Shown here one piece after another: positions 11,913-24,648 of a DNA stretch of 64,000 nucleotides (the stretch's first letter is position 1; each line of letters starts with the position of its first letter). The notes under the pieces were generated by a model. The model was given only the letters and a program-made list of their open reading frames with translations, made no database searches and was not told the DNA's origin. The translations under genes were made by a program, and so were the position numbers. The stretch spans positions 310,001 to 374,000 of the forward strand of contig NZ_CANMNK010000006.1 in NCBI RefSeq assembly GCF_947499265.1, in the 5' to 3' direction. This DNA comes from an uncultured Roseobacter sp. (GTDB lineage: Bacteria; Pseudomonadota; Alphaproteobacteria; Rhodobacterales; Rhodobacteraceae).

Positions 11913-12998
11913 ATGACAAAAATCAATCGCCGCGCGCTATTGAAATCCACCGCCGGTGCAGGCGGATTGGCACTGGCTGGCAGCATGCTGGGCACTCCAT
12001 TGATCGCGCAGACGCGCAGCCTTAAGGTGGGTTCTTACGGCGGGTATTTCGAGGACAGCTTCAAATCCTTCGTCTACCCCGCCTTCACCGAAGCCACCGG
12101 CATCGAGATCGAAAGCGTGACCCAGCCCAATTCCTCCGATTGGCTGGTCACCATGCAGCAGGCCACAGCCGCGGGCACCGTTCCGGCGGATGTGTCGCTT
12201 TATGCACGTGATGCCTTGATCAAGGCCTCCCGCATCGGCGGGCTGTTGGCGCCGCTGGAAACCAAGAACATGAAGGCGTCTGAAAATCTTGATGGGTATT
12301 TCGTGTTCGAGGACACCACCGGCGTGATCGGTGTGGGGGCGATGTCGTGGTTCACCTCGATGGTCGTAAATCCGGAATATGTGGAGACCCCGCCCGCCAG
12401 CTGGGCGGAGTTCTGGGACACCGGTCAGTATGAATCGAGCCTCGGCATCTCCAAACTGCACAACTCCAACTTCCTCGATATCGTCGCGGCCACGTTCTTT
12501 GAGGGCGAGGCCACATTCGCCAGCAACGATGGGATCGTGGCACTGGTCGAAAAGGCGCGCGAGCTGAAAGCCAATACGGCGCTCTGGTGGTCCGCCGAAA
12601 GCCAGATGGAGCAGGCGATGAAGAACGGCGATGTGATCGGCGGCATGTATTACCATGACGTCGCCCAGCTGATGGCGGCAGATGGGTTCTCGATCTTATC
12701 CCACTTCCCAAAAGAGGGTAATCCGCAAGGCTACGGCTCATGGTGTCTGTCCACCCTCTCGGAGAAAAAGGCCGAGGCCGAGGAATTCATCAACTTCTCC
12801 TCTGATCCTGCCACGCAGGCGCTGATGTCGCGGATGATCGGCACCGCACCTTTGGTCGATAAATCGAAGACCGACCTGACGGATGAGGAATTTGCCGCCG
12901 TCTCAGGCACCCCGGCCATCCAACCGGCCTATGAAGCCTATTTGGACAATGAGACCTTCATCAAGGAAACCTGGGATACGATGCTGGGCACCAGCTGA
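11913..12998 (+). CDS. ABC transporter substrate-binding protein, polyamine (PotD) type
   Basis: A strong GGGGAG site precedes the ATG. Residues 1-33 are a Tat-like signal (NRRALLK followed by a Gly/Ala/Leu-rich core and an AQT cleavage region). The mature part is a PBP type 2 spermidine/putrescine-like protein (LKVGSYGGYFEDSF, FTEATGIEIESV). It is the first gene of an operon with an ATPase and two permeases, spaced 5 bp from the ATPase gene. The ligand is unknown; the family binds polyamines, opines and other cationic amines. Confidence 0.85.
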   Translation: MTKINRRALLKSTAGAGGLALAGSMLGTPLIAQTRSLKVGSYGGYFEDSFKSFVYPAFTEATGIEIESVTQPNSSDWLVTMQQATAAGTVPADVSLYARDALIKASRIGGLLAPLETKNMKASENLDGYFVFEDTTGVIGVGAMSWFTSMVVNPEYVETPPASWAEFWDTGQYESSLGISKLHNSNFLDIVAATFFEGEATFASNDGIVALVEKARELKANTALWWSAESQMEQAMKNGDVIGGMYYHDVAQLMAADGFSILSHFPKEGNPQGYGSWCLSTLSEKKAEAEEFINFSSDPATQALMSRMIGTAPLVDKSKTDLTDEEFAAVSGTPAIQPAYEAYLDNETFIKETWDTMLGTS

Positions 12999-13003
12999 TC
13001 CCG

Positions 13004-14074
13004 ATGAGCGATCTCATTCTGAGGGGCATCCGCAAGGACTACGGTAAGGTGCGCGCGGTGGAAGGCGTTGACCTTACCTTTACACATGGCGAGTTGACAG
13101 CACTGCTTGGGCCGTCCGGTTGCGGCAAAACCACCCTGCTGCGGATGATTGCCGGGCTCGAGGACCCAACGGCCGGGAGCCTACGTCTGGGCGGTGCCGA
13201 TCTGACAGATGTCCCGGCGCATAAGCGCAAATTCGGAATGGTGTTTCAGAACTTTGCCCTCTTTCCGCATCTCAATGTGCGCGAAAACGTGTGTTACGCG
13301 CTGATCATCGACGGCGTGGCGAAAGCCAGGGCGCATGAAAAAGCGCATGAACTGCTTGACCTTGTGCAGCTAAGCGCGTTTGCGGACCGCCGGATCGGCG
13401 CATTATCTGGCGGTCAACGCCAGCGGGTGGCCATCGCACGCGCGCTCGCCCAGGAGCCGGAGATCTTCTTGCTGGACGAGCCGATGTCGGCGCTTGATGC
13501 CAATCTGCGCGAAGCGATGCAGGTGGAATTGCGCATGCTGCAACAGCGCCTTGGCATCACCACGATTGTCGTGACCCATGATCAGCGCGAGGCCATGACC
13601 ATGGCCGACAAGATCGTCGTCATGTCGAGCGGGCGTGTCGAGCAATTCGGCCCGCCGCAGGACATCTATCACAAACCGCAAAACGCATTTGTCGCCGATT
13701 TTATCGGTCGCGCGAATTTTTTCGATGGCGTCGTCCGGAACAACACCATCGAGGCGGCGGCGTTCAATTTAGAGGCGGCGACGTTGAATTTCACCGAAGG
13801 GGCGCCGGTGCGCGTCGCCGTGCGACCCGAACAGGTGCATCTGGATGGCACCTTGCCGCAAGGCAACAGGGTGCCCGCGCAGGTGACATTTGTGCGGGAT
13901 GTGGGGGCCACGCGCGACATTCACCTCGAAACACCACTTGGCAGGTTGATCGTCGAATATGCGCTTGGTGAAAAAGCCCGCGCCTATGCACTTGGCGAAG
14001 AGGTCGAAGTACACTTGCCGCCAAAGGCCTTGTACGTCTATCCGGCCGCTGACCCCATTCCGAGTGCGGCGTGA
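13004..14074 (+). CDS. ABC transporter ATPase, PotA type
   Basis: The 356-residue ATPase has Walker A (GPSGCGKTT), Q-loop (MVFQNFALFPHL), signature LSGGQRQR, Walker B (IFLLDEP) and the H-loop (VVTHDQ), followed by a C-terminal TOBE_2 domain from about residue 270 (VAVRPEQVHL). This is the usual architecture of spermidine/putrescine-type importers. Its stop overlaps the GTG start of the first permease, so subunits are made in fixed ratio. Confidence 0.9.
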   Translation: MSDLILRGIRKDYGKVRAVEGVDLTFTHGELTALLGPSGCGKTTLLRMIAGLEDPTAGSLRLGGADLTDVPAHKRKFGMVFQNFALFPHLNVRENVCYALIIDGVAKARAHEKAHELLDLVQLSAFADRRIGALSGGQRQRVAIARALAQEPEIFLLDEPMSALDANLREAMQVELRMLQQRLGITTIVVTHDQREAMTMADKIVVMSSGRVEQFGPPQDIYHKPQNAFVADFIGRANFFDGVVRNNTIEAAAFNLEAATLNFTEGAPVRVAVRPEQVHLDGTLPQGNRVPAQVTFVRDVGATRDIHLETPLGRLIVEYALGEKARAYALGEEVEVHLPPKALYVYPAADPIPSAA

Positions 14075-15054
14075 CCAGTATCGAAACGCCATCTGCGCTT
14101 GAGCCAGAGGTGGTGGCCCTGAAGCCGCCCAGAATAACCCCCTCCTTCAACACGCTTTTGCTGTGTGCGCTGATCTGCATTTTTTGCGTTGTACCCTTCT
14201 TGCTGGTTCTCGCGATCTCCTTTGGACAAAAGATCGAAGGGGCGGCGTGGGAATGGGCCTTCACTGGGGACAATTACATACGTTTCTTTGTCGGTGCCGA
14301 TTGGCCGCAAAGCACCACCTTTCTCTATCTCAATCGGCTCTGGTACTCGCTCTACTACGCGGTCATCGCCTCCTGCATCGCGGTGATCACGGCCTTTCCC
14401 TTCACGTATTTCATGACCCGGATGTCGCGGGCCGCGCAAAGCCGTTGGCTGGTGTTTCTGCTGGCCACCATGTCGCTCTCCGAGGTCTTCATCGTGATGG
14501 GGTGGGATATCCTGCTGTCCAACCGCTCCGGTCTGCCGATGCTCCTGCGGGAGACTGGCGTGACGGCCTGGCTGAAGGACGTGGGCTGGTTCAACCAGCT
14601 GCGCGAATGGGGGCTGGCTAACCCGCGTGACGTCAAATTCAAAACCTCCGAATTCGCCACCATCCTGACGATGTCCTATCTGGTTTGGCCCTATGCGGTG
14701 ATCCTGCTCTACCCCGCACTGTCCCGATTGGATCAGTCCATGGTTGAGGCCGCGCGGACCATGGGGGCGGGTCCCTGGACGGTGGTGCGCACCGTTGTCC
14801 TGCCCACCGTGCGGATGCCCCTGATCGGGACGCTGTTTTTGCTCTTTGTTTTCCTGCTGGGCACCTATGTTTCGGTCACCGTCTTTGCCGATCCGTCGAA
14901 ACAGACACTGGCGATCTCGGTCTATGAAGCGGTGCGCGGCTCGACGCTGAACGCGCCCTTTGGCGCGGCTCAGGCGATGATCCTCTTGGTGACGGGGGCC
15001 GTTTGCCTGCTCTTGGGGCAACAGTTGGTCAACCGGACGGGAGCGCGCGCATGA
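14071..15054 (+). CDS. ABC transporter permease, PotB type
   Basis: Starts with GTG inside a GTGA overlap with the ATPase gene. The 327-residue protein has a first membrane helix at about residues 27-50, a periplasmic loop, and five more helices. The EAA-type cytoplasmic loop (EAARTMGAGPWTVVRTVVLPTV) contacts the ATPase. It forms the membrane pore with the next permease. Confidence 0.88.
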   Translation: MTSIETPSALEPEVVALKPPRITPSFNTLLLCALICIFCVVPFLLVLAISFGQKIEGAAWEWAFTGDNYIRFFVGADWPQSTTFLYLNRLWYSLYYAVIASCIAVITAFPFTYFMTRMSRAAQSRWLVFLLATMSLSEVFIVMGWDILLSNRSGLPMLLRETGVTAWLKDVGWFNQLREWGLANPRDVKFKTSEFATILTMSYLVWPYAVILLYPALSRLDQSMVEAARTMGAGPWTVVRTVVLPTVRMPLIGTLFLLFVFLLGTYVSVTVFADPSKQTLAISVYEAVRGSTLNAPFGAAQAMILLVTGAVCLLLGQQLVNRTGARA

Positions 15055-15848
15055 AAACGCTCAGCACCCTCTTCATGGGTCTTGCTTCGATTGTCGTCCT
15101 GTTACCCATCGTGGTGGTCAGTGCCGCGGCACTGAACGGCGGGCGGTCAATGCTGTTCCCGCCGCAGGATCCGACCCTCAGCCGGTTCGCCGAGTTCTTT
15201 CTGACAGAGCCGGTCTGGCGCACGGCGATGTTTCACTCGGCCATCATCGCCATTGGCAGCGCCGCCCTTGCAGTGTTGATTGCCTGGCCACTGGCCTATG
15301 GGCTTTGGAAAAATAGGGGCAAGGCTTCGAAGGTTCTTGCTGGCCTCGGCGCGATGCCTTTTGCCCTGCCACCGATTGTCTTTGGTGTTGGCTTGGGGTT
15401 TTTCTGGGGATTTTCCGGTGGTCTGGGCGCGATCTGGTCGGGCATCATCAGCCATGCGGTGCTGTTTCTGGCCTTGCCGCTGGTCACCATTTCCATCGGC
15501 CTGCAGTCCATCGACCGGGCCCATCTGGATGCGGCGGCGACCATGGGCGCGACCGAAAAGGTGATCTTCCGCACCATCATCCTGCCCCAGATGGTGCCTT
15601 ACACCGCATCCGGTTTTTTCTTCGCGCTGGTGCTCAGCTTCAACGAATTCATCGTCATGTTCTTCGTGTCGAGCTCGGCCTATTCCACCGTGACGCTGCA
15701 AATCTTCAACTCGCTGCGCAATGGTTTCACACCAACCATGGCGGTGGCCGCAATCACCTTTATCCTCGTGTCCGTTGCCGTCTTTTCCCTTGTCGCCCGC
15801 TTTGGCGACCTGCCGCGCCTGATGGGGGCGGATCAATCCAAATCCTGA
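15051..15848 (+). CDS. ABC transporter permease, PotC type
   Basis: Start at the ATG overlapping the previous TGA (ATGA); an upstream in-frame Met lies inside the previous gene and is not needed. The 265-residue product has six predicted helices, beginning with a hydrophobic stretch at residues 5-27, and the EAA loop (DAAATMGATEKVIFRTIILP). It completes the four-subunit importer. Confidence 0.88.
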   Translation: MKTLSTLFMGLASIVVLLPIVVVSAAALNGGRSMLFPPQDPTLSRFAEFFLTEPVWRTAMFHSAIIAIGSAALAVLIAWPLAYGLWKNRGKASKVLAGLGAMPFALPPIVFGVGLGFFWGFSGGLGAIWSGIISHAVLFLALPLVTISIGLQSIDRAHLDAAATMGATEKVIFRTIILPQMVPYTASGFFFALVLSFNEFIVMFFVSSSAYSTVTLQIFNSLRNGFTPTMAVAAITFILVSVAVFSLVARFGDLPRLMGADQSKS

Positions 15849-15860
15849 AGGAGACTTGAT

Positions 15861-16475
15861 ATGCCACGCCAACCCACGCTTGTCGGAAATGTTGTTCTGA
15901 TGGTCATCGACATTCAAAAAGGCGCCTTCCTCGAGGGCGATGGCGGTATCCCGCATATGCCCGGCTACACCGAAAACATGACGCGGGCGCGGCAGGTGAT
16001 CGATGCTGCTCATGACATGGACGTCCCCGTTATCTTCTTTCAGGAAATCCACCGCCGGGACCGGATCGATTATGGCCGCGAGCTGGATGGGTCAGAAGGC
16101 ATCCATTGCATGGAGGGGGATCCTGGCACCCCTGTCGCCGCCGTGGAAATGGACATGCGCGAGACGGATTACTTCGTGCACAAGCGCCGCTATTCGGTGT
16201 TTTTCGGGACCGAGACAGAGATCCTGCTCAAGGGTCTCAAGGCCGAAACGCTGATCCTGATTGGCGGCATGACCGACGTTTGCGTGCATTACTCTTTCGT
16301 CGATGGGCATCAGCATGATTACTACTGCCGCGTCGTGGCTGACAGTGTGGGCGGTACGTCGCTTGAGGCGCATCAGGCTTCCCTGAATGCGATGGAATAT
16401 CTGCAGGCCGGGGCCGTCATCAGCACCGAAGATATCGTTGCCGCCCTGCGCGGAAAGAACCAGGCGGCTGCATGA
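15861..16475 (+). CDS. Isochorismatase-family cysteine hydrolase
   Basis: The 204-residue protein has the Cys-hydrolase triad of the family: D17 (VIDIQKGAF), K108 (VHKRRYSVF) and C141 (GGMTDVCVHYS). Relatives hydrolyse amides or carbamates (nicotinamidase, N-carbamoylsarcosine amidase, biuret and ureidoacrylate hydrolases). It follows the permease gene by 12 bp with a GGAG site and is ATGA-coupled to the next gene. The probable role is cleavage of the imported compound or of its oxidised product; the substrate is not known. Confidence 0.85.
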   Translation: MPRQPTLVGNVVLMVIDIQKGAFLEGDGGIPHMPGYTENMTRARQVIDAAHDMDVPVIFFQEIHRRDRIDYGRELDGSEGIHCMEGDPGTPVAAVEMDMRETDYFVHKRRYSVFFGTETEILLKGLKAETLILIGGMTDVCVHYSFVDGHQHDYYCRVVADSVGGTSLEAHQASLNAMEYLQAGAVISTEDIVAALRGKNQAAA

Positions 16476-17194
16476 TTGGTGTCGCTGATCTTCAGGGCCA
16501 CTGGCAGCGCGACTGGATAAAAGCGCCGGGATTTGAAGATCATACGACCCGCGTGCATTGGATGCAGGCAGGGGCGCTTTTCGCCGACATCCGCGTTCCC
16601 TTGGACCGGCCTGATCTCACCCGGCGCGATTGTCTCGCCGACCTGACGCAGCCTGAACTGGCGCAATTGCTGGCCGCCGAAGGGTTCGCCGGCACCATTA
16701 CGGTCGCGGAAAATCGCTGCACATGGCATCGCGAAATCAATTGGCACGAGGAGCCGGATATCAACGATATCGGGCTCATGTCGTTTGAGGATGGCGCGTT
16801 GATCGAGGATGGGGTTCTGGCTGAATACCGCGAGCTATGGCGACGCAGGCCGAATGAAAAGCTGCGCGGCCACCGCCTGACATTTGGGGATCAGCGAGCC
16901 GTGTTGATCGAAAACCACAGCGTTTTTCTGGTTGCGGTCGGTCCGGTGCCGCAAGGAAACACCACCGCATTGACCGCACATCTGAAGACCGGCGATGCCT
17001 CTCCTGAAGCGCTCCGGCAGCATTTCGAAAGCACCTACTGCATGGGGCATTGGGACGGCGAAAGCGGTATCGCTGAGCTGGCAACCAATCCCTTCTGCGA
17101 AGGTCGCGAGGTTTTACAACGCGGCTCAGCGTTCCATTGGTCGGGCCCCACTTTTGATGGCGAGACCTACGCGCAAGTTCTCAGAGCAGCCTAG
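16472..17194 (+). CDS. Conserved-looking protein of unknown function (240 aa)
   Basis: Coupled by ATGA to the isochorismatase gene, so very probably part of the same pathway. No signal peptide or membrane segment. The sequence is strand-rich with many Trp and His residues (LQGHWQRDWIK, WMQAGALFADIRVP, CTWHREINWHEEPD, YCMGHWDGESG), which resembles a lipocalin-like barrel in texture. I do not recognise a named family and assign no activity. Confidence 0.7.
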   Translation: MIGVADLQGHWQRDWIKAPGFEDHTTRVHWMQAGALFADIRVPLDRPDLTRRDCLADLTQPELAQLLAAEGFAGTITVAENRCTWHREINWHEEPDINDIGLMSFEDGALIEDGVLAEYRELWRRRPNEKLRGHRLTFGDQRAVLIENHSVFLVAVGPVPQGNTTALTAHLKTGDASPEALRQHFESTYCMGHWDGESGIAELATNPFCEGREVLQRGSAFHWSGPTFDGETYAQVLRAA

Positions 17195-17497: not shown

Positions 17498-18286
17498 TCA
17501 GGCTTGCCAGCGGGCCAGATAGCGTTCCACAATCTCGTCAAGTCTCTGCTTGCCAAAACACGGGTCATGCCCGCCATGCACAACCGTGACCGGCAAGTCG
17601 CGGAGCCGTCGCAGGGTCCTGGCATAATCGGGAAGGCTCATCCCCGGGCCGTCATAAATCAGCGGTCCGTCATAGATGGCGTCCGCGCCAAAAAGTGCCC
17701 CGCTGTCGTGGTGGAACAGGCCGACCTGACCGGGTGAGTGACCGGGTAAATGCAGCACTTCGGCCTGCCAATCGCCAAGGTCGATCATATCCCCTTCGGT
17801 GACCATGCCCGTCGGCGGGGCACCGCGTAAAACATAGCTGTCGACGTCATAGTCAGGCGCAGGTACGGCATTGATCAGGAGCGGCCAGAGCGGTTCATAC
17901 CCGGCCTCCAGAAACAGGTTTCGGAAGGCATCGGAAATGCCATCGGTGCGCAGTGAATAGGGCGCAGGGGCGGCCAGTTCATCCGCCTCGATCGGGTGCA
18001 CCAGCCTTGTGTCGAATTCATGCACTGCCCCGATGTGATCCACATGGGTGTGGGTTGAAAGGCAGATCAAGGGGCGCGCCGGGTCTGGGCGGAGCGGGTC
18101 CACGAAAGGGCGGAGGGGCGCGATACCCATACCGCTGTCGATCAGCAGATCAGCGTCGCGCCCCAGCACCAAATGCATATTGGCCGAAAAAATCGGGTGC
18201 ACCCGTGGCTCGGTGATGAGCCACAGGCGGGGATCTATCTGTTGCGCGCGATACCACGCGGCATCGACCGGTAGATCGGCGGTCAT
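17498..18286 (-). CDS. MBL-fold metallo-hydrolase, last gene of the guanidine operon
   Basis: Start chosen at the ATG that overlaps the TGA of the preceding small gene (ATGA); a GTG 30 bp upstream is the alternative. The 262-residue protein has the metallo-beta-lactamase metal motif H79-x-H81-x-D83-H84, then a GHSPGQVG histidine, a GADAIYDG aspartate and a final VVHGGHD histidine, so both metal sites look complete. Relatives are glyoxalase II-like thioesterases, lactonases and phosphodiesterases. The tight coupling to the riboswitch-controlled genes implies a role with guanidine import or breakdown, but none is established. Confidence 0.85.
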   Translation of the reverse strand: MTADLPVDAAWYRAQQIDPRLWLITEPRVHPIFSANMHLVLGRDADLLIDSGMGIAPLRPFVDPLRPDPARPLICLSTHTHVDHIGAVHEFDTRLVHPIEADELAAPAPYSLRTDGISDAFRNLFLEAGYEPLWPLLINAVPAPDYDVDSYVLRGAPPTGMVTEGDMIDLGDWQAEVLHLPGHSPGQVGLFHHDSGALFGADAIYDGPLIYDGPGMSLPDYARTLRRLRDLPVTVVHGGHDPCFGKQRLDEIVERYLARWQA

Positions 18287-18453
18287 GAAGCGGGTCTGGC
18301 ACCGCGCAGGCGCCACGCCAGGAGAGCGGCGGCGGCGATGATGCAGAGGCTGGTCACAAGACCCAGGGGCGATGCGCTGCCGATGTCGGCTTCGTGGTGG
18401 GCCAGCGCGGGTGTGCTGACGACGAGAGCGGTGAGAAGTGTTGCGTATTTCAT
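18283..18453 (-). CDS. Small membrane protein (56 aa) in the guanidine operon
   Basis: Start at the ATG that overlaps the stop of the His-rich gene; its own stop overlaps the MBL start, giving an ATGA junction on both sides. Residues 1-19 form a signal-peptide-like segment ending ALA, followed by HHEADIG, one transmembrane helix (about 30-48) and a short Arg-rich tail. The His-His-Glu just after the cleavage site could bind metal at the periplasmic face, reminiscent of HupE/UreJ nickel proteins, but it is far too short to be one. Unknown family. Confidence 0.65.
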   Translation of the reverse strand: MKYATLLTALVVSTPALAHHEADIGSASPLGLVTSLCIIAAAALLAWRLRGARPAS

Positions 18454-18881
18454 TTTAAGATCCTTTCCGAGGCGGGGTGTTTTTGCAAGAATGTGCGCAG
18501 GTCTGTGACCTCTTTGGCGTCGAGCGAGACATAGATCAGGCCCATATTGGTGCGTTCCGTCACCATCTCGCCGGGGTAGGGCAGGTAGCTCAGTTCGCGC
18601 GAGCCGAAGGAGGGCGAGGCCGTGCCGACCTGCCATTCGGTCGTCAGTTTGACATCCACCAGTTTCATCGACGGGCCACCGCCGGGCGCATCGATTTCAA
18701 GCGGCACCCCGGCGATGCGCAGGTATGACATCTTGTCCTTGGCGGCGACGAAACCATCGATAAATTGCTCTGTCAGGACCTGCAGCTCGTCGGCTTCATC
18801 CGCCTCATGCATGTGGCTGTGCAGGTGGTCGGGGTGGTCATGGTTGTGGCCGATGTGGCCGTTCACGATATCATGTGGCAT
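18450..18881 (-). CDS. His-rich N-terminus protein (143 aa), possible metal-handling accessory
   Basis: Start at 18881, overlapping the end of the ureohydrolase gene by 11 bp. The first 25 residues contain nine histidines (positions 3, 9, 12, 14, 16, 19, 21, 23, 25), followed by an acidic patch and a ~110-residue alpha/beta domain I do not recognise. His-rich tails of this sort are seen in nickel proteins such as HypB, UreE and SlyD. Guanidine hydrolase of cyanobacteria is nickel-dependent and works with HypA/HypB-like helpers, so a nickel delivery role is an attractive inference. There is no P-loop, so it is not HypB itself. Confidence 0.75.
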   Translation of the reverse strand: MPHDIVNGHIGHNHDHPDHLHSHMHEADEADELQVLTEQFIDGFVAAKDKMSYLRIAGVPLEIDAPGGGPSMKLVDVKLTTEWQVGTASPSFGSRELSYLPYPGEMVTERTNMGLIYVSLDAKEVTDLRTFLQKHPASERILK

Positions 18882-20115
18882 TGGACCACCGCTTTCCTGT
18901 GAACTCGCCATGGGGGATCTCGACGGGTTTGTCGATGTGCCGCTTGTGCGCGCCCATCTTGCCCGCCGCGACCAGAGAACCCAGCACATCCACGATCACG
19001 CGGGTGCCCATGAGCGCCGTGATTTCCGACTGGTCATAGGGGGGGGCGACCTCAACAAGCTCCATGCCACAGATACCTTCGGCGGCCACCTTCGAGGCCA
19101 GTGCGAGGGCCTCGCGCGGCAGGAACCCCCCCGGTTCCGGCCAGCCCGTGCCCGGCACAAACCCACAGTCGATGCTGTCGATGTCGAAGGACATATAGAC
19201 CATATCGACCCCGTCCCAGGCCATCTCCAGCGCCATCTCGGCGGTCTTGTCGACACCCATCTTCTCCATGTCGCCCATGGTGATGATGTTGGTCTCGCGT
19301 TCGCGCGCGACCTTCACCGCTTCGCGCGGCACCTGCCAGCCGCCAATGCCCACCTGCACGAGGTTCTTGGCGGGCACATTGGGCAGCAGTGTCGAATGGA
19401 ACCACGGCGTGGTGTGCATCCGCTCGTCCAGATCCTTTTCCTGAATGTCCGCATGGCGGTCAAAGTGCACGATGCCGATTTTCTTCGATGTGCACTCCGC
19501 AATCCCCCGCACGCAGGGAAAGCCGATGGAATGGTCTCCGCCAATCATGATCGGCAGTGAGCCGGAGGAGGCCACATGGCTCACCGCGCGGCTGATCTGG
19601 TCAAAGGTCTTTTCGATATTGGCGGGGATCGTGAAGACGTCACCCGCATCGCAGAGCGTCATCTGTTCGCGCAGGTCCACGCCCATCTCATAGTTGTAAG
19701 GCGTATAGAGCGCCGAGATCTTGCGTACCCCCTGCGGGCCAAACCGGGTGCCCGCGCGGTAGGTGGTCCCCCCGTCAAAGGGGATGCCCAGAACGGTGGC
19801 GTCGTAGTCCTTCACTTCCGTCACATCCTCGGCATAGGGCGCCTTGAGGAAGGTGTTGATGCCGGCGTAATGCGGCAGCTCGCCGCGTGCGAAGGTGGGG
19901 ATGGACTTGTCCTCGATGCTGTCGGCACCGGTCAGCCCCATGCGCAGCGCCCATTTCTTTTCCTGCTCCCACCCGGTTTCGGGCAGGTCGCCTTCGGCCT
20001 GCATGGCCTTCCAACCCCGTAGTTTGGTCAGGTCCGGATGGTGGTTGCGCCGGGCCGAGGCTCGATTGTCGCGTGGATGGTGCGAGCGTGAGCGCTCAAG
20101 CGGGCTGAAAAACAT
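18871..20115 (-). CDS. gdmH: Ureohydrolase-family enzyme, probable guanidine hydrolase (agmatinase-like)
   Basis: Start confirmed by AAGGAGG six bases before the ATG. The 414-residue protein has a ~100-residue N-terminal extension before the arginase/agmatinase fold, longer than ordinary agmatinases. Metal ligands are present: GGDHS (H195), D219-x-H221-x-D223 and D311-x-D313, followed by PGTGWPEPGG. Automatic annotation would say agmatinase. The gene is the fourth of an operon behind a guanidine-I riboswitch, directly after an ABC importer and before a His-rich protein, so hydrolysis of guanidine to urea and ammonia is more likely. No urease is in the window. Confidence 0.75.
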   Translation of the reverse strand: MFFSPLERSRSHHPRDNRASARRNHHPDLTKLRGWKAMQAEGDLPETGWEQEKKWALRMGLTGADSIEDKSIPTFARGELPHYAGINTFLKAPYAEDVTEVKDYDATVLGIPFDGGTTYRAGTRFGPQGVRKISALYTPYNYEMGVDLREQMTLCDAGDVFTIPANIEKTFDQISRAVSHVASSGSLPIMIGGDHSIGFPCVRGIAECTSKKIGIVHFDRHADIQEKDLDERMHTTPWFHSTLLPNVPAKNLVQVGIGGWQVPREAVKVARERETNIITMGDMEKMGVDKTAEMALEMAWDGVDMVYMSFDIDSIDCGFVPGTGWPEPGGFLPREALALASKVAAEGICGMELVEVAPPYDQSEITALMGTRVIVDVLGSLVAAGKMGAHKRHIDKPVEIPHGEFTGKRWSNAT

Positions 20116-20863
20116 GGGTATCCTCCTTCAAGGTCTGAAATGGGATGCCGCCGTCGCGGGCATCAAAATCGTAGGTGATGGTTGCGCCATAAAGGTTCGG
20201 GTCCTGCGGGTCCCAGCGCGGCTTGTCGAAAACAAGCACGCGGTCGCCGAGTTTGAACGCTTCTTCGAGATCATGGGTCACCATGAAAACGGTCATGCCG
20301 GTTTCGGCGCGCAGATCCTGCAGAAAGTCGTGCATCGACAGGCGCGTGCCCGGATCAAGCGCGCCAAAGGGTTCATCGAGCAGGAGCACCCGGGGCTTGG
20401 CGCTCAGCGCCTGACCGATGGCAAGCCGCTGTTGCATGCCACCCGATAGGGTGGCCGGATATTGGTCGGCCACGTGATCCAGCCCGATCCGACCCAACAC
20501 GTCATCGGCGCGCGCCAGGGTGGCCTTGCGCTCTGCGCCAAAAAAGCGCCCACATCCACGGCGGAAGCTTTCACCCGTCACGATGTTCTCCCGGACGGTG
20601 AGGTGCGGAAAGACCGAATAGCGCTGAAAGACGATGCCGCGGTCCAGACCGGGCTCGCGCGCAGGTGCCGCTCCAGCGATGCGGATCTCGCCGCGCGTGG
20701 GCCGTTCCTGTGCCAGCAACAACCGTAGAAAGGTGGATTTGCCGCAACCCGACGCACCGACAATCGAGATGAATTCGCCTTCGTCCACGGCGACATTCAC
20801 GCGCTCGAGGATCGGGCGGCGGCCGTAGTTTTGGAAGACATCCTGTACGACGACAAAACTCAT
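20096..20863 (-). CDS. ABC transporter ATPase, NitT/TauT type (guanidine uptake)
   Basis: Start at 20863, overlapping the permease stop (ATGA); an upstream in-frame extension lies inside the permease gene and is not used. The 255-residue ATPase shows Walker A (GASGCGKST), signature LSGGMQQR, Walker B (LLLDEPFGALD) and H-loop (VTHDLEEA). Length and motifs match the nitrate/taurine/urea-carboxylase-region group. It overlaps the ureohydrolase gene by 20 bp, tying uptake to catabolism. Confidence 0.88.
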   Translation of the reverse strand: MSFVVVQDVFQNYGRRPILERVNVAVDEGEFISIVGASGCGKSTFLRLLLAQERPTRGEIRIAGAAPAREPGLDRGIVFQRYSVFPHLTVRENIVTGESFRRGCGRFFGAERKATLARADDVLGRIGLDHVADQYPATLSGGMQQRLAIGQALSAKPRVLLLDEPFGALDPGTRLSMHDFLQDLRAETGMTVFMVTHDLEEAFKLGDRVLVFDKPRWDPQDPNLYGATITYDFDARDGGIPFQTLKEDTHVFQPA

Positions 20864-21672
20864 AGGCCCTGCTCCGCCCAGGGGAAAAAGCGCCGCGATG
20901 CCCACCGCAGCACCCAGTCGATGGCAAAGGCGAGCAGCGTGATCCAGATCACGTAGGTCAGGATCACATCCATCGCGAGATACCGGCGCACAAGGAAGAT
21001 GCGATATCCCAGCCCTGCGTCTGAGGCGATGGCTTCGGCGGCGATCAGAAACAACCACGCGGGCCCCAGCGACAGGCGCACGGCAAGGATCAGGCGCGGC
21101 ATCAGCTGTGGCAGGGCCACGCGCATCGCGATCACCCAACTGGAGGCGCCGAGGGTCTGTGCCTTGACGATCAATTCCTGCGGGATTTCGAGCACCCGCT
21201 GGCTGAGATCGCGGATCAGAAAGGGCAGGGTGCCCACGACAATCAGCACGACCTTGGAGAGCTCGCCCAGACCAAAGACGATGAAAAGGATCGGCAAGAG
21301 CGCCAGGGGCGGGATCATCGACAACACGGCGACAAACTGCGCCAGGCAACTACGCACCAGAGGCAACAAGCCAATGGCCAACCCAAAGATCATCCCCACA
21401 AGGGCGGATATTCCGACGCCCAGGCCCAGACGTTTCAGGCTGGCCCAGGTATCTTGCCAGAACAGGATATCGCCGCTGCGTCGGTCCGGTTGGGTGACCA
21501 GCCGGACGGCCGTATCCCAAACGGTTGAAGGCGCGGGCAGCAATTTGTCTGCCGGGTTTTCCGCCAGCCGCAGCTCTGAGCCGATCGCATAGGCGATGAA
21601 CACGGCGGCAAATGGCAAAAGCGCCAGGAACAGGGCCAGGGGACGGCCAGGGAGGATGTTTATGATACGCAT
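20860..21672 (-). CDS. ABC transporter permease, NitT/TauT type (guanidine uptake)
   Basis: The 270-residue protein has six predicted helices starting at about residues 10-33 and the EAA loop of the family (KAQTLGASSWVIAMRVALPQLMPRL). The ATG at 21672 is taken as start; a GTG at 21699 would add nine residues. It is separated from the binding-protein gene by about 55 bp and coupled to the ATPase gene. Confidence 0.86.
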   Translation of the reverse strand: MRIINILPGRPLALFLALLPFAAVFIAYAIGSELRLAENPADKLLPAPSTVWDTAVRLVTQPDRRSGDILFWQDTWASLKRLGLGVGISALVGMIFGLAIGLLPLVRSCLAQFVAVLSMIPPLALLPILFIVFGLGELSKVVLIVVGTLPFLIRDLSQRVLEIPQELIVKAQTLGASSWVIAMRVALPQLMPRLILAVRLSLGPAWLFLIAAEAIASDAGLGYRIFLVRRYLAMDVILTYVIWITLLAFAIDWVLRWASRRFFPWAEQGL

Positions 21673-21726
21673 GTCAGGGTGCCCTGCACCGCCAATCACC
21701 GGCGAAGCAGGGCTGTGCCCGAAGGA

Positions 21727-22773
21727 TCAGAGCGCGCCGTCGGCGGCCATTTGCATGTAGGTCGTGTCGAAGCGGAACATCACATTGTTCTCATCCCCGG
21801 TGACCGTGCCATCCGGATAGGCGACACCCACAAAATCGGCAGATGGTGCGCCCTCGCCAAGGATCCCCTTGTCAAAGAGGAATTCCGCGACGCTGACCAT
21901 CGTGTCGGGCAGCGCTGCATCAGAGGTGAAACTGACGGCCGCCGCCGGATCATAGAACATCTCGGTCGAGGCAAGCTGTGCCTGATAGCCTGCGAGATCG
22001 GTTCCCGAGGCTTCTGCCATGGCGGACAAAACCTCTTCATCACCCGCCGCCATCAGCCCCATCACCTCGTACCACGCACCGACCAGGGCCTTGCCGAAAT
22101 CCGGGTTGGCCGCCAGCGTTTCGGTGTTCACCACCATCAGGTCGATGATCTCGCCCGGGATGTCGGAGCTGTCGAAAAGCTTCGTGGCTTTCGGGTCTTC
22201 GAGGATCGAGGAGACAAGTGGGTTCCAGGTGACCACAGCTTGCACATCGTCGGTGGCGAAGGCCGCAATCATATCCGCATCAGAGGTGTTGATGACGCTG
22301 TCCAGATCCACCTCCGACAGGCCGACGCTGTCCAGTCCGCGTGCCAGCAGGTAATGCGACACGGAAAGCTCCACCAGATTGACCGGCATGCCCGAGAGGC
22401 TCTTCAGATCGCCGTCGCCTTTCAGGATGACCGCATCGTTGCCGTTGGAATAGTCCCCGACAATCAACGCCGTGGTGTCCACGCCGCCGCCCGCAGGGAT
22501 GGAGAGCGTATCCATGTTCGTGGCGGAGACGCCATCGAATTGCCCGGCGGTATATTGGTTGATCGATTCAATATAGTCGTTGATCTGCACGATCTCGACA
22601 TCAATGCCGTATTTGTCCGCCCATTTATCCATGATGCCGCTGTCTTCGAGATAGCCCCACGGCATCCAGCCCACGTAGATTGACCACGCGACCCGGAAGT
22701 CGGTGCGGTCCTGAGCGCTGGCGCCGGACGCAAGGCATAGTGCAGCTACTGTCGAGAAAAATAGTTTTTTCAT
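21727..22773 (-). CDS. ABC transporter substrate-binding protein, first gene of the guanidine operon
   Basis: The 348-residue protein begins with a classical signal peptide (MKKLFFSTVAALCLASGASA) and continues as a NitT/TauT-type PBP. FRVAWSIYVGWMPWGYLEDSGIMDKWADKYGIDVE is characteristic of the group historically named after the urea carboxylase region, whose members often sit behind ykkC riboswitches and are now thought to carry guanidine. A GGGGA site precedes the ATG. The riboswitch ends about 75 bp upstream. Guanidine as ligand is inference from this arrangement. Confidence 0.85.
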   Translation of the reverse strand: MKKLFFSTVAALCLASGASAQDRTDFRVAWSIYVGWMPWGYLEDSGIMDKWADKYGIDVEIVQINDYIESINQYTAGQFDGVSATNMDTLSIPAGGGVDTTALIVGDYSNGNDAVILKGDGDLKSLSGMPVNLVELSVSHYLLARGLDSVGLSEVDLDSVINTSDADMIAAFATDDVQAVVTWNPLVSSILEDPKATKLFDSSDIPGEIIDLMVVNTETLAANPDFGKALVGAWYEVMGLMAAGDEEVLSAMAEASGTDLAGYQAQLASTEMFYDPAAAVSFTSDAALPDTMVSVAEFLFDKGILGEGAPSADFVGVAYPDGTVTGDENNVMFRFDTTYMQMAADGAL

Positions 22774-22849
22774 CTTTGGTCCCCATCGGTTTTCATAAAT
22801 GGAATGACCGCGTGAAGTGCTATATCGGAGCGCGGGTCAAACCTGCGCA

Positions 22850-22950
22850 GTAGCCTCCCGGGATTTTGCCCCGCCGTGTACCGCCCGGTCTGTTGCCGGG
22901 TAGCGATATCTCTCGGACCAGACCCTCACGCGGAAGCGGAACCCTAGATA
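22850..22950 (-). ncRNA. Guanidine-I (ykkC) riboswitch aptamer
   Basis: On the minus strand the conserved blocks of the ykkC class appear in order: CTAGGGTTCCG (22947-22937), CTGGTCCGAGAGA, an ACCGGGCGG segment, ACACGGCGGG and a closing CCCGGGAGG (ending near 22854). These are the signature sequences of the guanidine-I aptamer. It lies in the 5' leader of the binding-protein gene and should switch the seven-gene operon on when guanidine is bound. No T-rich terminator is obvious between aptamer and gene, so control may be translational, or by a hairpin I cannot resolve. Confidence 0.92.
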
Positions 22951-23371
22951 TCCTGCGCCCCCATGTCAGAATGCGCGGCGCGGGAATTCAACAGAGGTTC
23001 GACATCATGGCTTTGGAAACCCGGGGACTGCTTAAAAATAGGGCGTATCAGGGTGTTTTGTCTGTTTGTGCCTAATTTATGGGCGGGTTGGGTGGCGGTT
23101 TCCGCGGTTTAGATCCGTTGCAGCGGGAGGGTATCTGACCAGCAGCACGTTATTAACGCTCTTTGGCACCAGATAAATGCATCCCGTTGGCAATCCGGAG
23201 AATTTTTTACCCTCGCTATCCGTAGTTCCTAGTGGACGACAAAAGGAGAGCGCCATGGCTGTGGGAAGAGCCAGTCCGGCATATCCGGAACCGAGTTGCG
23301 CTTTGGCGCCATTCATTCCATTACTTTCCCTGGGTGTTCTGATCATCGGGGATGTTACATGCGAGGACTGC
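22951..23371. other. Divergent intergenic region between guanidine operon and sigma factor
   Basis: Holds the minus-strand promoter for the riboswitch leader and the plus-strand promoter for the sigma gene. A strong AAAGGAGA site at about 23241-23248 precedes an ATG at 23255 that is in frame with the sigma factor. No other gene is supported. Confidence 0.4.
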
Positions 23372-23875
23372 ATGTTGACTGACTTCAAGCGCGATATGAT
23401 TGCCGTTTTGCCGCGTCTCAGACGTTTCGCCCGGAGCCTGACACGGTCAGTTCCGGAAGCGGATGATCTTGTGCAGGAGGCCTGTTTGCGGGCGCTCAGC
23501 AAATCGCATCAATGGGACCCTGCGCAGCCACTGGACCGCTGGCTCTTTCGCATCACCCGCAACCTTTGGATCAGCGAGATCCGCAAACGCAAGGTTCGGC
23601 TGGGTGAAGGTCACATCCCGGCGGAGGAAAGCGCTGAATTGATCACGACGGAAACGGGCGAGAGCCGCGTTGCCTTCTCTCAGCTGCAGGGCAAGATCGC
23701 GGCTTTGCCCAGCGACCTTGCAAGCGTTCTGCTGGTCGTTTCGGTGGAAGGGTATAGTTACGCCGAGGCTGCTGAACTGCTGGACATTCCGATTGGCACG
23801 GTGATGAGCCGCATCCACCGTGCCCGAAAGACCCTCGCACAGAAAATCGCAGACCCTGTGGGAGGCGTCCAATGA
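23372..23875 (+). CDS. ECF-type RNA polymerase sigma factor
   Basis: The 167-residue product has sigma region 2 (about residues 8-75, with EADDLVQEACLRAL and DRWLFRITRNLWI) and region 4 (about 108-160, ending in an HTH, GYSYAEAAELLDIPIGTVMSRIHRAR). Region 3 is absent, as in ECF factors. The start at 23372 fits the family length. An in-frame ATG at 23255 has a much better ribosome site and would add a 39-residue partly hydrophobic leader. Coupled by ATGA to the anti-sigma gene. Confidence 0.88.
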   Translation: MLTDFKRDMIAVLPRLRRFARSLTRSVPEADDLVQEACLRALSKSHQWDPAQPLDRWLFRITRNLWISEIRKRKVRLGEGHIPAEESAELITTETGESRVAFSQLQGKIAALPSDLASVLLVVSVEGYSYAEAAELLDIPIGTVMSRIHRARKTLAQKIADPVGGVQ

Positions 23876-24648
23876 ACCAGTATCAGGAAAAACTGAGCGC
23901 CTTTCTGGACGGTGAGCTTTCGGAGACCGAAACCCGCGCGATAGAGAAGGCATTGGAAAGCGATGCGGAACTGCAGGCAGAGCTTGAGACGCTGATGGCG
24001 GCGGACCGCGTTGCCAAAGACGAATTCGCCGCGATCCTGGGTGAGCCGGTTCCCTTTGAGCTTGCAAAAGCCATACAGGATGCACCGGAAGACATAGTTG
24101 CGAATGATCCCGGCGCGCCGCGCAAGGGGACGGGGTGGCTGACGGCTGTTGCGGCAGTCATCGCCTTGGCAATCGGTGGCAGCGGCGGATATTGGGCCGG
24201 TTTGACGCAAGGCAACGAGGTCGTTGCCGCGCCGGGATGGCTGCAGGATATTGCCGACTATCACACCGTTTACGCCGCGCAAAAACGCCATCTTGTCGAA
24301 GTTCCGGCGAGCGAACGGGACCACATCCAGACATGGTTGACCAATACGGTCGGCGCTGACGTGCGGGTTCCTGATCTGACGGCTCAAGGGCTTGAATTCC
24401 AGGGCGCGCGGCTTTTGGTGGCTGCGGGCAAACCGGTGGCCCAACTGATGTATCTGGATGCGAATGAACGCGTTGTGGCGCTGTGCCAGATCCAGACGGA
24501 AACGCCGCGTGATGGGTTTGCGGAACAGTCGATCCAAAACTTCGGCATGGTGTCATGGGGCGGAGAGAATTCGAACTTCGTCGTTGTCGGGGACGAAGGC
24601 AGAAGTGATCTTGCAGAGATTGCACAGGCAGCAGCGACGCAGGTCTGA
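23872..24648 (+). CDS. Membrane anti-sigma factor
   Basis: The 258-residue protein has a cytoplasmic N-terminal part of the anti-sigma type (LSAFLDGELSETETRAIEKALESD), one transmembrane helix at about residues 86-106 (WLTAVAAVIALAIGG) and a periplasmic domain of about 145 residues. It lacks the HxxxCxxC zinc motif. It should hold the preceding ECF factor at the membrane until a signal is sensed in the periplasm; the signal is unknown. Confidence 0.82.
   Translation: MNQYQEKLSAFLDGELSETETRAIEKALESDAELQAELETLMAADRVAKDEFAAILGEPVPFELAKAIQDAPEDIVANDPGAPRKGTGWLTAVAAVIALAIGGSGGYWAGLTQGNEVVAAPGWLQDIADYHTVYAAQKRHLVEVPASERDHIQTWLTNTVGADVRVPDLTAQGLEFQGARLLVAAGKPVAQLMYLDANERVVALCQIQTETPRDGFAEQSIQNFGMVSWGGENSNFVVVGDEGRSDLAEIAQAAATQV

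Follow-up and report, generated by a model that had tools for sequence, protein, structure and literature searches.

The window, as we call the whole 64,000-nt stretch analysed here, carries on its minus strand a riboswitch aptamer followed by seven tightly packed genes (17498–22773). The features of the locus are given below; HisR is a label coined here for a 143-aa His-rich protein.

22853..22958, minus strand: Guanidine-I (ykkC) riboswitch aptamer, 106 nt (RF00442, 77.9 bits)
22778..22809, minus strand: candidate expression platform, a predicted stem hiding the Shine-Dalgarno sequence of the first gene (leader folding)
21727..22773, minus strand: ABC substrate-binding protein (SBP), 348 aa, probably guanidinium-binding (TIGR03427)
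20860..21699, minus strand: ABC permease, 279 aa from GTG at 21699 or 270 aa from ATG at 21672 (PF00528, E 9e-20)
20096..20863, minus strand: ABC ATPase, 255 aa (PF00005, E 1.6e-32)
18871..20115, minus strand: GdmH-type guanidine hydrolase, 414 aa from ATG at 20115, with an N-terminal HHPDL extension (phmmer, PF00491)
18450..18881, minus strand: HisR, 143 aa, candidate GdmH maturation/nickel factor (co-occurrence with GdmH, alignments, model)
18283..18453, minus strand: 56-aa peptide (ATGA overlap with HisR)
17498..18286, minus strand: MBL-fold hydrolase, 262 aa, last gene (PF00753, E 3.8e-15; ATGA overlap)

The permease gene lies 27 nt behind the SBP gene, counted from its GTG, and the next five junctions are overlaps of 4, 20, 11, 4 and 4 nt. 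From the permease onward these overlaps suggest coupled translation of one message, and we infer that the seven genes form a single transcript. This agrees with an earlier, sequence-only reading of the same DNA, which had described a seven-gene operon. On the plus strand, another cluster (11913–17194) converges on the operon. It encodes a binding protein weakly matching PotD and an ATPase, two ORFs resembling permeases of that ABC system, an isochorismatase-type hydrolase whose biuret-hydrolase match is below threshold, and a weak HRI1 match; the cmscan search of the window gave no guanidine-I match for this cluster. Just upstream of the riboswitch, a divergent pair of ORFs (23177–24648, plus strand) resembles an ECF sigma factor and its anti-sigma partner.

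In a cmscan search of the whole window, just one RNA match passed the gathering threshold. It is to RF00442 (Guanidine-I, ykkC) and lies at 22958–22853 on the minus strand (77.9 bits against a threshold of 63; E 3.7e-12). The match covers model positions 1–107 of 107, is not truncated and is the only one to this family found in the 5.2-Mb genome. The sequence-only reading had placed a guanidine-I riboswitch before an ABC binding-protein gene because of four conserved ykkC blocks on the minus strand, and had named a covariance-model search as the check. The blocks are all present in order, and the search bore the assignment out with a full-length match above gathering. The span then given, 22850–22950, hit the right site but cut off the 5′ end, since the aptamer extends eight bases past 22950. 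It is located upstream of genes for guanidine transport and degradation (the TIGR03427 binding protein and the GdmH-type enzyme). We conclude that the riboswitch is almost certainly real and of the Guanidine-I class; judged from the covariance-model match, guanidinium would be what binds the aptamer.

Variants of the ykkC fold exist that have ppGpp, PRPP or nucleotides as ligands. That the aptamer is such a variant, with guanidine not being the signal, is nevertheless very improbable: RF00442 matched over its full length, no other Rfam family was listed at 22700–23100 even with a threshold of E 10, and the enzyme and importer encoded downstream suit guanidine use. How the leader acts on the operon is a closer question. 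The Shine-Dalgarno sequence of the first gene was predicted to be paired in 11 of 11 leaders of the Roseobacter group (probability of being free, 0.01–0.28), these had been selected from 40 by a match to a pattern describing the stem arms; the first such pattern left out 28 of the 40, and many differ in appearance. In one leader (L140), the pairing moves to another base run but persists. The stem of the window itself is little better than its shuffles (z −0.63; 46 of 200 shuffles were as stable), and folding of the whole leader is no better than shuffles (z −0.10), while the stem in three hand-picked relatives gave z-scores of −2.04, −2.89 and −3.87. Control by transcription termination would fit the description of the class as acting on transcription (PMC11410670). 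However, a simple pattern scan, which is blind to other kinds of termination, found nothing resembling a terminator in the stretch from the aptamer to the first gene (eight sites found in total against 3.9 expected, none in the leader), and the stem is predicted in all 11 selected leaders. A scan for sigma-70 promoters gave two sites against 2.0 expected. We weakly favour control of translation by hiding of the Shine-Dalgarno sequence in this clade, a choice that we hold with a little less than even confidence; termination instead of Shine-Dalgarno hiding is the less probable mode, with perhaps a one-in-three chance.

The SBP scored 522.5 bits with TIGR03427 (cut-off 333.9), a model named 'putative urea', and is a probable guanidinium-binding protein. 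When compared with solved structures by phmmer, the ureohydrolase matched GdmH of Synechocystis (7esr/7oi1; E 4.7e-162) and the guanidinase of Nitrospira inopinata (9fek; E 2.8e-159), with the next family of solved relatives far behind (E 5.5e-49). Identity to the Synechocystis enzyme is ~66% (0.66) over 348 aligned residues and to the N. inopinata enzyme ~63% (0.63) over the printed alignment. The positions linked to guanidine are Thr97 and Trp305 in Synechocystis and His222 and Glu344 in N. inopinata (PMC11410670). All four are kept, as T81, W288, H197 and E318 counted from the M at 20004, in a mapping that assumes a two-residue offset, with the PDB chain numbering taken to be two higher than that of the protein. 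By homology, the ureohydrolase is a GdmH-type guanidine hydrolase. The claim that default agmatine and taurine names are wrong here, also made in the sequence-only reading, thus receives backing from the GdmH relatives and the specificity positions, independently of the RNA. We rejected a GdmH start at 20004, since the frame continues to the ATG at 20115 and the N-terminal extension that it adds is conserved. The motif HHP[DN][LF] was present in 114 of 116 alphaproteobacterial GdmH sequences, a number with overlap between sets, and in none of four actinobacterial ones; the two misses are HHPSY (L124) and a sequence at a contig end (L196). We also rejected an apparent GdmH–HisR fusion in two loci (L123 and L124) because long open segments lie in another frame. 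Import and hydrolysis of guanidine are very probably what the operon provides. The genome also has a urease with UreE and UreG and would be able to deal with the urea.

The riboswitch, importer and enzyme are of an already known kind in a new place. In Synechocystis, one operon is described as holding gdmH, two Ni2+-delivery genes (named ghaA and ghaB, GhaAB, in PMC11271267), an ABC importer and a guanidine-I riboswitch (PMC12186494), and a marine Synechococcus cluster resembles it (PMC10119275). Our operon shares with that of Synechocystis the riboswitch class, the ABC importer and the closely related enzyme, but has HisR in place of the HypA/HypB-type genes and in addition the membrane peptide and the MBL-fold hydrolase. 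The comammox Nitrospira locus, as described (PMC11410670), is alike in its guanidine-I riboswitch, its GdmH-type enzyme and the lack of nearby Ni chaperone genes; it has an APC permease where our operon has an ABC importer. What existing knowledge leaves unexplained in this operon is the His-rich gene after gdmH, which the sequence-only reading had not singled out. Among the titles listed in our literature search, none dealt with alphaproteobacterial gdmH operons or a His-rich guanidinase partner; the primary GdmH paper (Nature 2022) was outside that search. What looks new is that gdmH is paired with HisR in loci that lack HypA.

HisR begins with MPHD, followed by a His-rich arm ending in GHNH...HLHSH and by a core of ~100 residues with many invariant positions and a long conserved loop. 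Alignments show much stronger conservation in the core than in the arm, which holds 5–27 histidines in all 80 named members. A second, C-terminal His run occurs in one HisR protein (L085). The arm is short or nearly free of His in three diverged members (L117, L121 and L122), which keep the core with few histidines, L122 having a single one before it. The arm can therefore not be the whole of the function of HisR. Only five of the 80 members have any Cys. HypA has a Cys-based metal site, and a site of that type is thus unlikely in HisR.

No convincing Pfam match was found among 81 aligned HisR members (the best, to a model for a viral movement protein, had E 0.013). With NCBIfam there was again none; the best match (E 0.0011, in two of the 81) was to a nickel/cobalt efflux transporter and is taken to reflect the His run. 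In neither scan did HisR match the ureohydrolase family, and a profile of HisR found nothing better than E 0.15 among PDB sequences. In an AlphaFold model, 62 of 143 residues have a pLDDT of at least 90; it consists of two helices, a beta sheet with two long strands, and C-terminal helices. Confidence is mostly below 50 for residues 1–20 and averages 60–66 per ten-residue block over the conserved residues 81–110. We rejected a known fold because none of the 182 PDB matches that Foldseek gave at E ≤ 10 reached E ≤ 0.001; the top matches among the best 50 of these were weak and COMMD-type (probability ≤ 0.44). Descent from HypA or HypB was rejected as well, because neither family appeared in the Pfam and NCBIfam scans, and so was a diverged UreE, for which these scans gave no model and hhalign with the genome's own UreE aligned just seven residues. 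That UreE (L004, 361–843, in the urease cluster) has a His-rich tail with a seven-residue stretch, DDHIHAH, that resembles DHLHSH in HisR; the likeness probably reflects shared metal-binding chemistry and not homology. HypB carries a variable His-rich tail. As nickel chaperones, UreE and HypB are like HisR in being small helpers with a His-rich arm of variable length, but no homology to HisR was seen (hhalign with UreE; Pfam, NCBIfam).

The survey of HisR covered genome samples of the family, the class and the phylum, named loci and four actinobacterial loci. Among 149 genomes of the family, GdmH (E ≤ 1e-100) was present in 20 and HisR (E ≤ 0.001) in the same 20 and in none of the 129 others. 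The chance of such an overlap would be 3e-25 if genomes were independent, which they are not, so that we read this value as a strong pattern and not as a probability. In 19 of the 20, gdmH is followed by HisR on one contig and in the same orientation, at a distance of at most ~590 nt (L087); in the twentieth genome the two are split between two contig ends. The class sample (385 genomes) added ten gdmH genomes, all with HisR behind gdmH, and the phylum sample five, all with HisR; across these 15 further alphaproteobacterial genomes HisR follows gdmH without exception. Two of the 13 HisR genomes in the class sample had no GdmH match. The HisR of one (G273; L240, 7103–7354) is a 5′-truncated piece with no gdmH. 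In the other (G511; L241, 7260–7999), a broken SBP start runs directly into HisR, which has no start of its own and keeps its core with a His-rich tail at the C-terminus, as if the intervening genes had been lost or the assembly were wrong.

The named loci, the best 80 of 215 scan-confirmed matches to the HisR profile, gave the same picture; they overlap the unnamed set, nine loci matching genome contigs of that set in length, and the counts are not additive. Upstream of HisR, gdmH was found in 79 of the 80, and the remaining locus (L145) begins 17 nt from a contig end. One gdmH (L165) is cut by a contig end, which leaves its final 101 aligned residues. In the 78 named loci with most of gdmH, the gap to HisR is below 300 nt in 77 and 387 nt in one. 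A diverged HisR follows gdmH on both Sinorhizobium fredii plasmids examined, out of five records listed. None of the four actinobacterial GdmH loci had HisR nearby, nor did the stretch shown of two annotated ones hold a HypA gene, which suggests that some GdmH may be loaded without a local helper.

Of the 20 family genomes with gdmH, 18 yielded an RF00442 match, located in every case a short way before the importer genes; the other two (G008 and G083) gave none under stricter filters. RF00442 but no GdmH was seen in six genomes of the family, with the riboswitch match above the cut-off in three (G022, G046 and G118). The riboswitch was also found in each of the 22 named HisR loci scanned (22 of 80) and in six of nine wider alphaproteobacterial loci. 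In two loci, a riboswitch leader is followed almost directly, as if by deletion, by an apparent permease end (L134, 3844 onward) or an apparent binding-protein end (L149, 2937 onward).

Accessory Ni2+-delivery proteins from its operon are described as needed by Synechocystis GdmH (PMC12186494), and marine Synechococcus clusters carry hypA/hypB homologues (PMC10119275). None of the seven genes of our operon is of the HypA/HypB type, and HypA (PF01155) had no match in the genome; seven of 14 control genomes did match, four of them above the cut-off. Six proteins of the genome matched PF02492. Five are open frames of 340–412 aa, and the sixth, of 210 aa and the one small GTPase of HypB/UreG type, is UreG (TIGR00101, 311.9 bits; the hypB model TIGR00073 gave 65.9, below its cut-off of 121.2). 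Among 35 alphaproteobacterial genomes with gdmH, 12 had HypA above the cut-off (seven of 20 in the family and five of 15 further ones). It was never near gdmH, being on another contig in 11 and ~254 kb away in one (G005). For the comammox guanidinase locus, the published account mentions no Ni chaperone genes nearby and calls the loading mechanism unclear (PMC11410670). The metformin hydrolase operon, with hypA, hypB, two ureohydrolase genes and hupE, likewise combines a Ni2+-dependent ureohydrolase with metal-handling genes (PMC11399263, PMC11271267). It differs in having HypA/HypB and a heteromeric enzyme, where our operon has HisR without a match to the HypA/HypB families. Its chaperones are reported to have had no effect on activity in extracts, whereas a knockout failed to grow on metformin (PMC11271267), so a test confined to the test tube could mislead.

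The strict tie to gdmH, the His-rich arm, the lack of HypA and the conserved HHP[DN][LF] extension of GdmH lead us to favour nickel hand-over by HisR. HisR is probably a dedicated partner of GdmH of some sort; that it is a maturation factor whose job is nickel loading is a more evenly balanced proposition. A different partnership, in which HisR is a structural subunit or a folding or assembly factor of the GdmH hexamer and the arm a by-product or a means of metal tuning, would fit a core far better conserved than the arm and the diverged members that keep it with few histidines. It would also parallel metformin hydrolase, a GdmH relative that is described as needing a second subunit for activity, with the di-metal centres in its alpha subunits (PMC11399263). 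We think this unlikely, because HisR lacks a sequence match to the ureohydrolase family and because arms of at least five histidines throughout the named members are hard to explain without metal. Variable His-rich arms and the adjoining, His-bearing membrane peptide could alternatively mean that HisR stores or buffers nickel, shielding the cell during nickel uptake for GdmH and urease, with no direct hand-over. Neither the strict one-to-one tie to gdmH nor the conserved core with its long loop would be needed for buffering, and we regard this role as improbable.

The 56-aa peptide has a signal-like start, an AHHE motif, one likely membrane span and a basic end, and it gave no convincing family match. 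A strict pattern, too narrow to pick up the peptide of the window itself, found similar peptides behind HisR in 30 of 81 loci. The peptide may resemble the N-terminus of HupE/UreJ nickel permeases. HisR and the peptide could together constitute a small, dedicated path for nickel, and HisR might dock, or hand over nickel, at the HHPDL extension of alphaproteobacterial GdmH. With these roles included, HisR would found a new kind of GdmH-specific nickel metallochaperone, unrelated to HypA, HypB or UreE and used by alphaproteobacteria, a proposal that we make tentatively and at somewhat under even odds. Relatives of the MBL-fold hydrolase were found near gdmH in seven of 78 named loci, in three of them directly after HisR (L187, L195 and L199).

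Our proposal is that the guanidine-I riboswitch turns on one operon through which guanidine is used as a nitrogen source. Guanidinium on the aptamer would free expression of the operon, perhaps by opening the stem that hides the Shine-Dalgarno sequence. The ABC importer would take guanidinium into the cell, GdmH would, by homology, split it into urea and ammonium, and the urease encoded in the genome could then complete urea breakdown. In the cytoplasm HisR would act on GdmH, its conserved core docking on the enzyme and its His-rich arm carrying Ni2+ to the active site, in replacement of the HypA/HypB-type proteins of Synechocystis. For this operon-level account, with HisR as the partner of GdmH, we estimate a probability of roughly 0.75.

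These results bear on gene names in the lineage, where 'agmatinase family protein' should become guanidine hydrolase, and the 'putative urea' or taurine-type ABC transporter a probable guanidine importer. They also bear on how guanidine hydrolases are supplied with nickel where HypA/HypB-type helpers are absent, which is an open issue (PMC11410670). HisR is a concrete candidate for the nickel supply of GdmH, at least in alphaproteobacteria.
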